Origin: Cyclobacteriaceae bacterium
Lineage (GTDB): Bacteria; Bacteroidota; Bacteroidia; Cytophagales; Cyclobacteriaceae
NCBI GenBank assembly: GCA_025350305.1
Contig: JANXYC010000024.1
Coordinates: forward strand, 1 to 39,403
Direction of reading: 5' to 3'
Length of the DNA stretch: 39,403 nt
Shown: positions 25,365 through 30,487 of the stretch, piece by piece
Numbering within the stretch: the first letter of the stretch is position 1
Layout of the letters: each line of letters starts with the position of its first letter
The notes under the pieces: model-generated
What the model was told of the DNA's origin: nothing
What the model saw: the letters and a program-made list of their open reading frames with translations, nothing else
Databases searched by the model: none
Program-made: the position numbers and the translations under genes

Positions 25365-26609
25365 CTATCCCAAAAACATCTTGTTCTGTGCCAAACAATC
25401 TGCCAGGTGACGGTACGTATTCCTGATTGAATCCATTGAGTAATCACCATTCATCGATCGCAGAATTCGGTTGGAGAGGGTCCCTTCATTCAGGATAACC
25501 GAAATTTCCGGACTCCATTTTTCAAGTCCGGTATTTCCTTTTTTTAACAATGTGGAATGGATGTGCCGCCACAGGTCCTGAGCGGTGCACGGAGCCGCCA
25601 AGCCAAACGCGCCCGGATACTCAGAGGAAAGAATTTCAGCTTGTTGACCAACGGTTGACGTATCGTCCAGGATACCAGCGAGTATTTCCGTTTTGGCGCG
25701 AATCTGTTCTTCCATGTTGCAAAATTGCTCGTTCACCAACGCTTTGATCGTTTCAATCACCAGGGTCTGGATAGCCAGGTCCGCCGGCGGACATTCTTGT
25801 ATATCCATGATCCGAATTTCAATAGAGCCTCGGTCAAAGCGGGGAATGGCGCCGCGTGAATTTACCCAGATGGGATTCAGAATATTTTCGGGATCATGCG
25901 GTGCAATGTCATTCTTGATTCTTTCATAGATGGTATTCAAATACTGGCGCTTGGAGAACACGGCCTCCGGTACAATCTTTCCGGTGATCGAAGGAATTTT
26001 GGACTGGTTCGTTTTGTAGTAACTCATGCGCGTGTCCAGCATGCCTGTCACTTTTCCATCGAGGATGGGCGAACTTGCACAAAGCGCTGGCAGGATGGGC
26101 AACACAAGGCGAATGGCTGCGTGAAGTTTGGCAAATTCTTCGTCATCGTAAAAAGGTAAATTCAAATGCGTACTTTGTAAATTACTCCACCCGTGACCAC
26201 GGCAATCAAAAATTTTGTTGTAGATATCGTACACCTGATTGTCGCTGTCGTGGGGCCAGAGTTTTGTTTCAGTCGAAGGGTCCATCCAGGGGTGGGCTGC
26301 TGTGGGTAACAGCATTGCATCCCGTTTTTCGAGGATGGCATTAATTCTCCTCACATCATCAGCAAAAGCACTTTCCAGGGAATTGAAATTACTCTCCGGT
26401 TTAGTTGATTTCAGTTCAATCACGTGGAGGACCAGTTCATTTGACCACGTCACCATACCATTCTCAAACTCGCTTCCGTACCGACCGAGCTCATGTCTCA
26501 ACAGCTCATCCGCGATCGGCCGGATGTTCAGGGTTTTCCGGTCAACAATCATGTATTCCAATTCGACCCCGTAGGCCTGGAAAATATGTAAACGTGAGGG
26601 TTGCATCAT
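25365..26609 (-). CDS. GCS2-type carboxylate-amine ligase
   Basis: A 414-residue member of the glutamate-cysteine ligase family 2. The ligand-binding entry GVELEYMIVD (near residue 14) is the family signature, followed by HGWSNLQSTHLNLPF, which fits the substrate pocket, and RFDRGSIEIRIMDIQECPPADL, the conserved nucleotide/metal region. Such enzymes form an amide between a carboxylate and an amine using ATP. Gamma-glutamylcysteine is one possible product, but the operon context (next to a RimK-type ligase) suggests a different substrate. Its first 4 bases overlap the end of the upstream gene (ATGA), indicating coupled translation. It is the last gene of a four-gene operon. Confidence 0.88.
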   Translation of the reverse strand: MMQPSRLHIFQAYGVELEYMIVDRKTLNIRPIADELLRHELGRYGSEFENGMVTWSNELVLHVIELKSTKPESNFNSLESAFADDVRRINAILEKRDAMLLPTAAHPWMDPSTETKLWPHDSDNQVYDIYNKIFDCRGHGWSNLQSTHLNLPFYDDEEFAKLHAAIRLVLPILPALCASSPILDGKVTGMLDTRMSYYKTNQSKIPSITGKIVPEAVFSKRQYLNTIYERIKNDIAPHDPENILNPIWVNSRGAIPRFDRGSIEIRIMDIQECPPADLAIQTLVIETIKALVNEQFCNMEEQIRAKTEILAGILDDTSTVGQQAEILSSEYPGAFGLAAPCTAQDLWRHIHSTLLKKGNTGLEKWSPEISVILNEGTLSNRILRSMNGDYSMDSIRNTYRHLADCLAQNKMFLG

Positions 26610-28054
26610 TTTGCAGATTTGACTTTGTTGAGAATAACCTCCATGATGATATCGTACAGTTTGTCTTTCAGGATTTTGTCTTCCGTGCCGGCGTCAATAT
26701 TCGGATTGTCATTTACTTCAATGATATAAAATTTTCCATCGACTTCCTTCATGTCCACGCCGTACAATCCTTTGCCGATAAGTGATGTAGCCTTTAACGC
26801 GGCTTTCAATAAACCCGCCGGTGCCTGGTCTACGGCAATGCTTTCCACTTGTCCATCGCGCGACGTCTCTTTTTCAGCGCTCCAATTGACAATTTGCCAA
26901 TGTTTGCTGGCCATAAAGTATTTGCAGACGTACAGCACCTGGCCGTCGATTACGCCGACGCGCCAGTCGAAGGGTGTGGGAAGAAATTCCTGGGCAATGA
27001 TGAGATCCGATTTTTCGAACATGCCTTTGCGCTCAACCTTGAACTCCGCCAGGTTATTGATCTTGACCACACCTCGTGAAAATGCACCGTCTGGTTGTTT
27101 AAGAATGAATGGAAATGCCATTTTATCGGTAACCAAATTGCAATTCTCCATGGTAATTACGTACGACTTTGGCGTGAGGATTTTATTGGCACTTAGTAAT
27201 TCATGGAGGTACACTTTGTTCGTACATTTCAAGATTGATTCAGGGTCATCAATCACAGCCAATCCCAGTGACTCAGCTTTTTTTGCAAACCGGAACGTGT
27301 GGTGGTTGACGTTGGTGGTCTCCCGGATGAAAAGCGCGTCATACTGAATCAGCTTGTCAATATCATTTTTAGTAATAAACTCTGTATTGAAGCCCGCCTC
27401 CAGTGATGCTTTGTAAAACCGTTTCAATGCCCGGTCATCAGAAGGCGGGTAGGAATCTTCCGGATTAACAAGAATGGCAAGGTCGTATTTCTTTTTGTCG
27501 GGTCGGTAATCGCGCTTTCGCAAAAGATATTTTTCCAATGCGCTCTCCAAAATTGGCTGGTCGCTCTCCGGCATCTCGCTCAAACTGATGGGTCGGATAC
27601 TTTGCAGAACCCATTTATTCTTCTTCGAAAAACTGGCCCTCACCAGTGGAGCTTGTACGAGTTGGAAGAGTTGTAAGGCCAGCTTATTCAGGTTTTCGGA
27701 CTGGGCCGATCCAAAATAGATATTGAACTCCACGCGGTCGTACGGCTCCTGCTTAAATGTATTTTGGATGAGTGCATCAAAGTCCTGGGAGTCGTCGCGA
27801 AGGATAGACGGAAAACGGAGGTCCTGGATAGTAGAGACTTCGGGAAGCACTTTATGTCCACGTGCCTCCGCCAGTAAGGAAACATAATAACCTTCGCTTT
27901 GGTATTGATAGGATTTACAGAGGTTGAGAATCTTTAAATTCTTCACTGACTGGTACAACTCGTCAGTTATGTAGCGGTCAGGTGTGATTACCTCAACATC
28001 TTCCAGGCGGAGGTTCCAGCTTTTAGGTTTTTCTACGATGATTATTTTAGGCAC
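26606..28054 (-). CDS. RimK-type ATP-grasp ligase with N-terminal RLAN-like domain
   Basis: A 482-residue ATP-grasp amide ligase. The first about 190 residues (IIIVEKPKSWNLRLEDVEVI, then YYVSLLAEARGHKVLPE) match the RLAN type of RimK-associated N-terminal domain. The ATP-grasp part starts near ESILKCTNKVYLHELL, with PFILKQPDGAFSRGVVKI as the nucleotide loop, FDWRVGVIDGQVLY, and the metal-binding end YGVDMKEVDGKFYIIEVNDNPNID. RimK itself adds glutamate to ribosomal S6, but relatives modify other proteins or build peptides. It overlaps the GCS2 gene by 4 bp and lies 68 bp after the C39 peptidase gene. Confidence 0.9.
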   Translation of the reverse strand: MPKIIIVEKPKSWNLRLEDVEVITPDRYITDELYQSVKNLKILNLCKSYQYQSEGYYVSLLAEARGHKVLPEVSTIQDLRFPSILRDDSQDFDALIQNTFKQEPYDRVEFNIYFGSAQSENLNKLALQLFQLVQAPLVRASFSKKNKWVLQSIRPISLSEMPESDQPILESALEKYLLRKRDYRPDKKKYDLAILVNPEDSYPPSDDRALKRFYKASLEAGFNTEFITKNDIDKLIQYDALFIRETTNVNHHTFRFAKKAESLGLAVIDDPESILKCTNKVYLHELLSANKILTPKSYVITMENCNLVTDKMAFPFILKQPDGAFSRGVVKINNLAEFKVERKGMFEKSDLIIAQEFLPTPFDWRVGVIDGQVLYVCKYFMASKHWQIVNWSAEKETSRDGQVESIAVDQAPAGLLKAALKATSLIGKGLYGVDMKEVDGKFYIIEVNDNPNIDAGTEDKILKDKLYDIIMEVILNKVKSAK

Positions 28055-28091
28055 GTGGGTATTGTATTGGTTGCAATATATCTCTGTTTCG

Positions 28092-28126
28092 CTACTGCCT
28101 GCTGCTTACAGCCCACTGCCTACTAT
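28092..28126. repeat. 7-bp-periodic repeat between two operon genes
   Basis: Five heptads of the type CTACTGC run through the 68-bp gap and overlap the stop codon of the C39-like peptidase gene (28123-28125). It is the only sizeable gap in this operon, so the repeat may modulate expression of the downstream ligase genes. Confidence 0.5.
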
Positions 28127-28839
28127 TTGTTCTTAGGTTGAATAATCAACAGATTCGCATCATATGTCACAATTCCCAACATGATGCTGTTGATCAGCCG
28201 GTCGAAGGTCACACTGTAGTATTGACTTTTTAGCGGGTTGGGATTCATGGGATCGGCGAGGTAAACATAATCAGCACCTTCGTCATAGCCGTTGATGATG
28301 GCAAAGTGGCCTACGGGTTCTCCTTTGATACTGTCATATTTATTGCTCACTGAAATCTCACGCTGGGTTCCATAGAGGTAGGTGGCGCTCAGCCCCGCCA
28401 GTACGGGAATGGATTTTTTTAGGTAGCCTTTTATAAGTTTGTCGTCAAGTTCGTCGTACAACAATTTTCCCCCGGCCTCCAGAAACTTTATGTAGGCCCG
28501 GCTGGCCACCAGGAGTTTTCGGCGCTTGAATTTGTAGGCCATTTGCTTTTTTAAATTGTAAATCATCTTTCGCGAAGAAAGTTTGAACCAGGTGGGATCA
28601 AAGACATGGAGATTATAGGTGTAAATGGAGGCTTGGTACCCACGTTGAAGGGCATGATTGCCCATCATCACAGCCAATGTACCGCCAGTTTTCAATTGCT
28701 TTACCTCCCGGATCACCTGTTTGAGACTGATGGCATCGTTGTAATGCTGATACAGCGCGTGAAGACAGGTTGGGCCGCAGGTAACTTCATCAGGCTGTGC
28801 CTTTATATCAAAATTCAGAAAGAGCGCCTGACGCTGCAT
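28123..28839 (-). CDS. C39-like (papain-fold) cysteine peptidase
   Basis: A 238-residue protein with the C39-type active site: C21 in DEVTCGPTCLHALYQHY, H178 in VGHFAIINGYDE and D196 in YLADPMNPN. There is no signal peptide or membrane segment, so it is predicted to be cytoplasmic, in contrast to C39 domains of bacteriocin exporters. Length is larger than a bare C39 domain, with an inserted basic helix region at about residues 90-115. It lies 4 bp after the DUF155 gene. In this operon the natural hypothesis is cleavage of an amide or peptide tag made by the two ligases; this is inferred only from context. Confidence 0.82.
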   Translation of the reverse strand: MQRQALFLNFDIKAQPDEVTCGPTCLHALYQHYNDAISLKQVIREVKQLKTGGTLAVMMGNHALQRGYQASIYTYNLHVFDPTWFKLSSRKMIYNLKKQMAYKFKRRKLLVASRAYIKFLEAGGKLLYDELDDKLIKGYLKKSIPVLAGLSATYLYGTQREISVSNKYDSIKGEPVGHFAIINGYDEGADYVYLADPMNPNPLKSQYYSVTFDRLINSIMLGIVTYDANLLIIQPKNK

Positions 28840-28843
28840 GGGA

Positions 28844-29629
28844 TTAAAACAATTTTGGAATTAGGATGTTCAAAAGTTCAACCAAAATTAAGGCGATGAT
28901 AATCCACTCCAGAACGTTGCTCTCGCGCTGGTTCGAGATTTGGAGGAACACCTTCAGGTTATCGTCAATGATCCGAAGGGTATATTCTATTTCGCTCACA
29001 CGAACCCGCAGGTCGAAATGTTTCATTAATCCCCTATTCAATGAATCGAGGTTTTCATTCTCCCATACTTGCTCGGGGGTATCGAATATGTAAATATTAT
29101 CGACAATATCATTTTGTGTATTCAAGGCCCTTCCAATAAACTTCAGCATGTTTTTTCTGTTGATGCTGAGTTTTCCGTTCGTCTCAAGGCCGTTCGTGAA
29201 GCTTCTGACTTCCATCAGCAGGTTTTCTGAAATTGCCTGATAGTGGTCCAAGGCAATCGATTGGGCAAGGTTGAACATGGCGATGCGAATGATTTTATCA
29301 TCCACGTGGTCAACAATCAATTGATCGAATTCAAATTGCAAGGCAGCGCCGGACTGAACGCGGATATCATGATCTTCGCGCAGCCAGGGTTCAGGATTTT
29401 TCAGGTAGTTCTGAATCTTTTCGACCGCCAGTTTAATTTCTTCCTCGGTGTGCCCGGAGAAGACCACCACGCCATAGTTGAAATAGTATTGATAACTGTC
29501 CAACCCAGCACGATAAAATAGCTCATACGAACTATCGGCCACGGTCTTTAAATCAAAAAAAGCCTTGATCCCCTTCAGGTCCAATTGACTGGCTACCCGG
29601 ATTGCAGAGAGTTTTACTGTTTTTTCCAT
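28844..29629 (-). CDS. DUF155 (RMND1/Rmd1-type) membrane-anchored protein
   Basis: A 261-residue protein of the DUF155 family, related to yeast Rmd1/Rmd8 and human RMND1. The hallmark YQYYFNYGVVVFSG is at about residue 46, and the central helical part (ALDHYQAISENLLMEVRSFTNG) and DTPEQVWENENLDSLN are conserved features. The C-terminus ends in a single membrane segment (EWIIIALILVELLNILIP), so it is tail-anchored with the bulk in the cytoplasm. Its function in bacteria is not known. It is the first gene of the operon; 4 bp separate it from the peptidase gene. A -7 box ends 11 bp before its ATG. Confidence 0.85.
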   Translation of the reverse strand: MEKTVKLSAIRVASQLDLKGIKAFFDLKTVADSSYELFYRAGLDSYQYYFNYGVVVFSGHTEEEIKLAVEKIQNYLKNPEPWLREDHDIRVQSGAALQFEFDQLIVDHVDDKIIRIAMFNLAQSIALDHYQAISENLLMEVRSFTNGLETNGKLSINRKNMLKFIGRALNTQNDIVDNIYIFDTPEQVWENENLDSLNRGLMKHFDLRVRVSEIEYTLRIIDDNLKVFLQISNQRESNVLEWIIIALILVELLNILIPKLF

Positions 29630-29640
29630 GCTGCTGAACT

Positions 29641-29671
29641 CAAAGATAGTCGTAATATCATCGGATATAAA
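29641..29671 (-). promoter_or_regulatory. Promoter of the ligase/peptidase operon, TTTA-N19-TATCTTTG
   Basis: On the minus strand, TATCTTTG (29648-29641) matches TAnnTTTG exactly, and TTTA (29671-29668) is one base off TTTG with a 19-bp spacer. Transcription would start about 5 bases before the DUF155 ATG, an almost leaderless mRNA. Its upstream box overlaps the -7 box of the opposite promoter. Confidence 0.5.
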
Positions 29672-29675
29672 TTTG
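29668..29675 (+). promoter_or_regulatory. -7 box TAAATTTG for the S1/P1 nuclease gene
   Basis: TAAATTTG is an exact TAnnTTTG match, 44 bp before the nuclease ATG. No TTTG lies at the normal distance upstream. It overlaps the upstream box of the divergent operon promoter, so the two could interfere. Confidence 0.4.
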
Positions 29676-29719
29676 GGTTTATGTTGAAAAGTCTAATATT
29701 GCGACTTAGCCTGTCTACT

Positions 29720-30487
29720 ATGAAAAAGAAATTTGCTGTCCTTATTTTGGCGTGTATTACAACGGTCGAAGCATTCGGGTGGGGCACTACCGGCCATCGG
29801 GCCACCGGCCTCATTGCTGAGCAGTATTTGATCGCAAAGGCCAAAAAGAGGATCGCGCTCATACTTGAACAAGAGTCAATCGCCATGGCAAGCAACTGGA
29901 TGGACGAAATCCGCTCTGACTCCGCCTATAACTATACTACCGACTGGCACTGGACGACCATTCCGGAAGGAAAACGCTTCGAAGACGTGGAGGCAAATCC
30001 TGACGGCAAAGTAGTGATGATGATTGAAAAGATTGTCACGGATCTAAAATCGCGAAAGCTGGCGCCTAAGCAGGAAAGGGAATACCTGAAGATGCTTATT
30101 CATCTGGTGGGCGATATTCATCAGCCTCTTCATGTGGGTAAGCCCGGCGACCGTGGCGGAAATGATGTAAAAGTGAAATGGTTTGGCGCTGACTCCAACC
30201 TGCACCGGGTGTGGGACAGCGATATGATCGATGGCACAAAATTGAGTTACACCGAGTTGGCGCAGTCATTTATCAAGCCAGATAAGACCATTGTAGCAAA
30301 ATGGCAAGCATCTTCAGTGCGTGACTGGGCAATGGAATCGGTAAGTTATCGCCCGCAGGTGTATGATATCGGGAAAGGCACCCTGGGTTATCAGTACAGC
30401 TATAAATATTTCAGCATAGCCAGACAGCGTATGCTTCAGTCAGGCATTCGACTGGCGGGTTTATTGAATCAGATTTACGGAAAGTAA
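29720..30487 (+). CDS. Secreted S1/P1-type zinc nuclease
   Basis: A 255-residue exported nuclease. The signal peptide is KKKFAVLILACITTVEAFG, with cleavage predicted just before W21, which is significant because in P1 nuclease the N-terminal tryptophan is a zinc ligand. Further ligands appear in GTTGHRATG, NWMDEIRSD, WHWTTIP, HLVGDIHQPLHVG and GGNDV/LHRVWDSDMI. The family degrades single-stranded DNA and RNA, probably for nutrient scavenging in the periplasm or outside. An open frame upstream to 29585 is not used, because the signal peptide starts at 29720. It is divergent from the ligase/peptidase operon. Confidence 0.93.
   Translation: MKKKFAVLILACITTVEAFGWGTTGHRATGLIAEQYLIAKAKKRIALILEQESIAMASNWMDEIRSDSAYNYTTDWHWTTIPEGKRFEDVEANPDGKVVMMIEKIVTDLKSRKLAPKQEREYLKMLIHLVGDIHQPLHVGKPGDRGGNDVKVKWFGADSNLHRVWDSDMIDGTKLSYTELAQSFIKPDKTIVAKWQASSVRDWAMESVSYRPQVYDIGKGTLGYQYSYKYFSIARQRMLQSGIRLAGLLNQIYGK

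Follow-up and report, generated by a model that had tools for sequence, protein, structure and literature searches.

Which enzyme does a bacterial DUF155 protein work with, and what would two amide-forming ligases make beside a peptidase? Both questions are raised by a four-gene operon in a 39,403-nucleotide stretch of Cyclobacteriaceae DNA (contig JANXYC010000024.1 of assembly GCA_025350305.1), which at its full length is called the window below. The nearest named relatives of the window, among the matches listed, were Flammeovirgaceae/Cyclobacteriaceae metagenome-assembled genomes and Chryseolinea serpens. The operon encodes a DUF155 protein, a C39-like peptidase, an RLAN-RimK ATP-grasp ligase and a GCS2-type ligase. 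We found that the last three form a unit whose order is conserved across many phyla; working out one member would account for a pathway that is common yet obscure. DUF155 is accessory to this core, but is found near the RLAN ligase repeatedly, at rates much higher than expected from random placement. DUF155 is also the family of RMND1, a human mitochondrial disease gene, and the molecular role of DUF155/RMND1 proteins is unsettled.

The C39-RLAN-GCS2 core

The four genes are packed on one strand in the order DUF155, C39-like, RLAN-RimK and GCS2, with gaps of 4 bp and 68 bp and then a 4-bp overlap (Table 1). An earlier note, made from the sequence alone, had described this arrangement and these families, and it is borne out by the open reading frame (ORF) coordinates and by Pfam, where all four proteins exceed the curated cut-offs. 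Two sets of loci were compared with the operon. A draw of 296 Bacteroidota genomes contained 35 with RLAN (the window's genome counted), and the 34 other loci were used. The second set, which is not random, held the 80 named loci whose ligase was most similar to that of the window among the matches listed, one genome per species, from Spirochaetota, Planctomycetota, Pseudomonadota, Verrucomicrobiota, Acidobacteriota, Nitrospirota and other phyla. C39, RLAN and GCS2 were all present in 21/34 Bacteroidota loci, in the same order and on one strand in 21/21. Among the best 80 named loci C39 was found in 69, GCS2 in 70 and the full set in 65, with order and strand preserved in 65/65. The four-gene unit of the earlier note thus stands for these three genes, whereas DUF155 is not fixed and is missing beside 31/34 Bacteroidota loci; separation in most relatives was found for DUF155 only.

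A frequent next gene of the core, overlooked in the earlier note, encodes an N-formylglutamate-amidohydrolase-like protein (FGase, PF05013), which was detected in 15/34 Bacteroidota loci and 46/80 best named loci. It was found neither beside the window's operon nor at the operons of the closest relatives (L031, L095, L096, L232), and is present at those of L097, L032 and L033. The sole FGase found in the window's genome is encoded on a different contig and matches the operon-type profile poorly (4e-6). With two amide-forming enzymes and an intact peptidase in one conserved operon, and with this hydrolase added in many relatives, the make-and-cut logic proposed earlier is reasonable. We know of no product for this set of two ligases and one or two hydrolases.

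Ten of the 34 Bacteroidota loci had none of C39, GCS2 and FGase. A GNAT profile derived from known cases detected a GNAT-type domain immediately before RLAN in each of the ten; in three of them Pfam identified an acetyltransferase fused to the front of RLAN. GCS2 and the plain C39 protein are replaced in L050, L234, L229 and L235 by a fusion of a GNAT acetyltransferase with a DUF3335 peptidase, and L229 and L235 additionally carry DUF2817. GCS2 occurred together with GNAT-type genes in 2/125 distinct loci. In L050, RLAN and the ATP-grasp domain are on separate adjacent genes, beside the GNAT-DUF3335 fusion.

Residues Q15, C21, H178 and D196 of the C39-like protein were invariant in 20/20 aligned Bacteroidota proteins, and the Cys/His/Asp triad was unchanged in 98/98 long homologues over all loci, a set in which some loci are duplicates and others had been chosen for their DUF155. 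Since the active Cys is residue 21, there is no room for a signal peptide; the signal-less papain-fold peptidase with a complete triad postulated earlier is supported. The operon-core C39 proteins are homologous to DUF3335 peptidases (hhalign E 1.8e-13). An ATP-grasp enzyme together with a C39-like peptidase could also point to maturation of a ribosomally synthesised and post-translationally modified peptide, such as a graspetide, with C39 as the leader peptidase, and an ABC-transporter ATPase cluster was seen near the core in 3 loci (L058, L060, L131). However, unlike the C39 peptidases that process bacteriocins, the operon protein stands alone without a fused ABC transporter, the ligase is RimK/LysX-like with an RLAN domain, and no precursor gene lies in the operon gaps, to which that search was limited. 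We consider such a maturation system very improbable.

The RLAN-RimK ligase is built from an RLAN domain (residues ~27-170; PF14401, 151.8 bits, cut-off 25) and a RimK/LysX-like part (~190-480; PF08443, 35.5 bits, cut-off 21). Its model gave the best fold fit with LysX/ArgX and RimK, enzymes that join amino acids onto a C-terminal glutamate. It did not reach the NCBIfam RimK family TIGR00768 (82 bits, cut-off 143.4). The GCS2 protein carries the GhExE motif as G14-x-E16-x-E18, and GxExE was invariant in 23/23 aligned proteins and in 98/98 long homologues across all loci. It fell under the NCBIfam cut-offs for every named ligase listed, including YbdK, cyanobacterial GshA and EgtA (top 45.2 bits, cut-off 176.4). 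In L053 neither the RLAN ligase nor GCS2 is in a single frame, through decay or sequence errors.

The same enzyme classes, in matching reaction order, would suit a glutathione- or phytochelatin-like pathway, in which GCS2 makes gamma-Glu-X, the ATP-grasp enzyme adds a third residue and the papain-fold protein acts as a transpeptidase, yielding a thiol or metal-binding peptide. GCS2 is placed in the gamma-glutamyl ligase superfamily in the accessible part of PMC2588565, and the RLAN profile weakly reaches glutathione synthetase (E 4e-4). The ATP-grasp part, however, is nearer to LysX/RimK than to glutathione synthetase, and the GCS2 protein lies far under all named glutamate-cysteine ligase models listed. 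Among the ten annotated representatives of recurrent neighbours, the remaining clusters being unannotated, thiol genes were found 0 times and a cation exchanger once (4 loci). A pathway of this kind therefore seems improbable to us.

Table 1. Positions of the operon genes in the window and of other features discussed in the text (locus handles precede positions outside the window).
Feature	Position	Strand	Details
DUF155 (RMND1/Sif2-Sif3 family) protein	28844-29629	minus	261 aa; PF02582 9.2e-31, 107.7 bits (cut-off 27)
C39-like (papain-fold) cysteine peptidase/amidase	28123-28839	minus	238 aa; Peptidase_C39_2 (PF13529) 2e-10, Peptidase_C39 (PF03412) 6e-6
RLAN-RimK ATP-grasp ligase	26606-28054	minus	482 aa, GTG start; RLAN (PF14401) 2e-44, RimK (PF08443) 1e-8
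GCS2-type carboxylate-amine ligase	25365-26609	minus	414 aa; PF04107 1.6e-22, 80.7 bits (cut-off 21)
S1/P1 nuclease gene	29585-30487		divergent from operon
DUF155-like protein	L163:4911-6089		
DUF155-like protein	L159:840-2051		
RLAN and ATP-grasp on separate genes	L050:4068-6689		
RLAN ligase and GCS2, split	L053:3779-6480		

The S1/P1 nuclease gene is conserved in nine relatives, L098 and L099, which have no DUF155, among them.

DUF155 near the RLAN ligase

DUF155 or a DUF155-like protein adjoins RLAN at L234, L235, L229 and L169, where neither GCS2 nor FGase was found. The gene row of L234 is GNAT-DUF3335, RLAN, DUF155, and L235 reaches the contig end just after its DUF155/RLAN stretch. At L169 and L239 a DUF155 gene lies near that of the RLAN ligase in divergent orientation, and the 15 kb examined gave no match to C39, GCS2 or FGase; L169 has a GNAT-type gene at a distance of 2.4 kb. 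As RLAN is the common member where GCS2 and FGase were not found, the RLAN ligase is probably the partner of DUF155.

The two genes were found side by side at 3/34 Bacteroidota loci and 8/80 best named loci, one of the eight (L163) having the DUF155-like kind. In the taxonomic order of the window (148 genomes) RLAN was present in 10 genomes, DUF155 over the cut-off in 22 and both in 7, and in 7/7 of the latter, from families f1, f59 and f64, DUF155 lies within 5 kb of RLAN on the same strand. The Bacteroidota draw had DUF155 in 16 genomes and both genes in 5, adjacent in 4/5; these four all belong to family f1 and are also in the order count. Of 203 genomes of Gammaproteobacteria (the class of G470), 46 had RLAN, 29 DUF155 over the cut-off and 16 both, within 8 kb in 6/16. 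The placement differs among these pairs: DUF155 is divergent in G470, downstream of FGase on the opposite strand in G676 and directly behind RLAN in G772 and G765, while G450 and G841, whose ligases are near-identical, have other ORFs between RLAN and DUF155. Among 44 of the 80 named genomes, DUF155 was found in 7 and near RLAN in 4 (L101, L106, L140, L169); these genomes were hand-picked, include loci already seen with DUF155 and are not an independent test.

Under random placement such proximity is expected in well under 1% of cases per genome, and the rarity of DUF155 (16/296 genomes) makes chance proximity less likely. The binomials are rough because they ignore relatedness among the genomes. 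Proximity to DUF155 or a DUF155-like protein changes at least 12 times on an RLAN tree of 124 rows (107 labelled), and 8 times for Pfam DUF155 alone; the sample is enriched for adjacent loci and losses are counted too, so that the tree shows scatter and not an exact number of gains.

A second family, DUF155-like, consists of proteins of ~360-400 aa, whose genes stand behind RLAN in L229 and, in L163, L159, L195-L197 and L201, either upstream of the core or in divergent orientation to it. Four members tested had no Pfam match. By profile alignment the family is homologous to DUF155 (258 columns, hhalign prob 97.9, E 3e-13; prob 73, E 3e-5 with the membrane segment left out, against prob 0.1-0.3 in five control comparisons with core proteins). 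In 199 genomes of Acidobacteriota (the phylum of G466) RLAN was found in 53, DUF155-like in 37 and both in 17, adjacent in 6/17. Most DUF155-like members of these 37 genomes were not found next to RLAN.

Several observations weigh against a close tie between DUF155 and the ligase. All ten Bacteroidota loci with a GNAT-type domain before the ligase are among the 31 that have no adjacent DUF155. In the window's order 15/22 DUF155 genomes have no RLAN, so DUF155 has other roles too. Other ORFs separate the two genes in L140/L237, and they were not found close in 10/16 gammaproteobacterial and 11/17 acidobacterial genomes with both, mostly on different contigs of draft genomes; G712, G803 and G843 have them on the same contig but more than 150 kb apart, and in G070 of the Bacteroidota draw they are on different contigs. 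Clustering of the flanking genes ranked DUF155 second, with 10 loci, behind a PAS/histidine-kinase cluster with 13, of which 6 are on the same strand. Like the latter, a DnaJ-domain cluster recurs near the core across phyla, in 6 loci and always on the same strand. The PAS/histidine-kinase and DnaJ-domain proteins are common families, and their counts are raw. Because DUF155 is missing beside most RLAN loci and is on a separate contig in G070, it is dispensable or replaceable.

These results could mean that C39-RLAN-GCS2(-FGase) carries out soluble, cytosolic peptide synthesis, with DUF155 adjacent and functionally uncoupled. The absence of DUF155 from most loci fits this, as do its variable placement and strand (upstream, downstream, divergent) and the near relatives L098/L099, which retain the divergent nuclease neighbour without DUF155. 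However, the proximity recurs in different phyla far above the random expectation, within the limits of the binomials given above, it involves two diverged DUF155 subfamilies, and the gene pairs in L229, L234 and L235 overlap or are tightly spaced. We therefore regard a mere passenger as rather unlikely.

A putative ligate-and-trim module at the membrane

The DUF155 protein of the window, the only one found in its genome (92% complete), has a hydrophobic C terminus (~239-260) with a hydropathy peak of 2.56 over the 19 residues from residue 239, by simple hydropathy only. The peaks of the other operon proteins were 1.77 (GCS2), 1.68 (C39) and 1.06 (RLAN). An invariant glutamate is part of the C-terminal helix; E241 and E251 were both unchanged in 19 aligned proteins. 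RMND1 and plant RRL are likewise drawn with a C-terminal membrane segment in PMC7564844 and PMC4588890. The predicted model (pLDDT 82) is similar, along most of the protein, to the stalk-and-membrane layout of CorA/MRS2, a match that is not significant. The membrane tether suggested in the earlier note fits the hydrophobic C terminus and the recurring RLAN neighbourhood.

We propose that the operon encodes a cytosolic module that ligates and trims at a glutamyl or C-terminal carboxylate and is docked at the inner membrane by DUF155, a reading to which we give about an even chance. The reactions, substrates, membrane topology and physical tethering that we infer are as follows. GCS2 would activate a carboxylate with ATP, by family the gamma-carboxylate of glutamate, and join it to an amine. 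The RLAN-ATP-grasp enzyme, with its catalytic half closest to LysX/ArgX and RimK, would add an amino acid either to a protein C terminus or to what GCS2 has made. Cutting or trimming of the amide may then fall to the C39-like cysteine enzyme, joined in many relatives by the FGase-type hydrolase. DUF155, with its C-terminal helix in the membrane and its domain in the cytosol, would bind the RLAN ligase and place the reaction at the membrane. As to the product, a small glutamyl peptide is somewhat likelier than a protein tag.

A protein tag would be expected if RLAN acted as RimK does on RpsF, with DUF155 recruiting it to membrane ribosomes and the hydrolases reversing the mark. The catalytic half is indeed closest to enzymes that act on protein C termini, the operon gaps are too small for a precursor-peptide gene, and PMC5264221 describes a proposed role of RMND1 in anchoring or stabilising the mitoribosome. 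However, ribosomal or translation genes made up 0/10 of the annotated recurrent neighbours, and GCS2 and FGase are better suited to small molecules; modification of ribosomes or other protein C termini is, in our opinion, quite unlikely. Equally speculative, and improbable too, is that DUF155 proteins are membrane receptors for RLAN/RimK-type amide ligases, that the bacterial ancestor of RMND1 recruited a C-terminal-glutamate ligase to the inner membrane, possibly for ribosome-linked or new proteins, and that the mitoribosome-anchoring role is a remnant of this.

Comparison with known systems

Iyer et al. (2009, Mol Biosyst) reportedly predicted amidoligase operons with RimK-like ATP-grasp, GCS2, GNAT and C39/DUF3335 peptidases, in which ligases are paired with peptidases, and we take the core of the window to resemble these. 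Compared with those predicted operons, DUF155 as a component, the related DUF155-like proteins and the replacement of GCS2 and FGase by GNAT would be additions. The LysX/ArgX-LysW systems differ in their carrier: no LysW-like protein is among the four operon proteins, to which that search was confined.

RimABK of Pseudomonas is similar in combining a RimK/LysX-type ATP-grasp ligase with a counteracting protease. Its RimB, however, is an aspartic retropepsin according to the accessible part of PMC12239564, whereas the window's operon has a papain-fold peptidase, an additional GCS2, an RLAN domain and DUF155; none of the four operon proteins matched a RimB-type retropepsin in Pfam. The same part of PMC12239564 describes RloABC of Pseudomonas aeruginosa, an operon of an ATP-grasp protein, a membrane protein and a protease. 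In contrast to our operon, the transglutaminase RloB is inactive and has seven membrane helices, RloA is secreted, and GCS2, C39 and DUF155 are not named there.

Literature linking DUF155 to RimK/RLAN or GCS2, or reporting a bacterial partner gene for DUF155/RMND1, was not found at the level of titles and abstracts, with most subscription papers outside this coverage. The accessible parts of PMC7564844, PMC5264221 and PMC4588890 mention no ligase partner for the eukaryotic DUF155 proteins. These proteins, RMND1 and Sif2-Sif3, share their Pfam family with the DUF155 of the window and act in mitochondria, unlike the window's protein. For this poorly understood family, an RLAN ligase of well-defined chemistry as a recurrent neighbour offers a concrete partner candidate.

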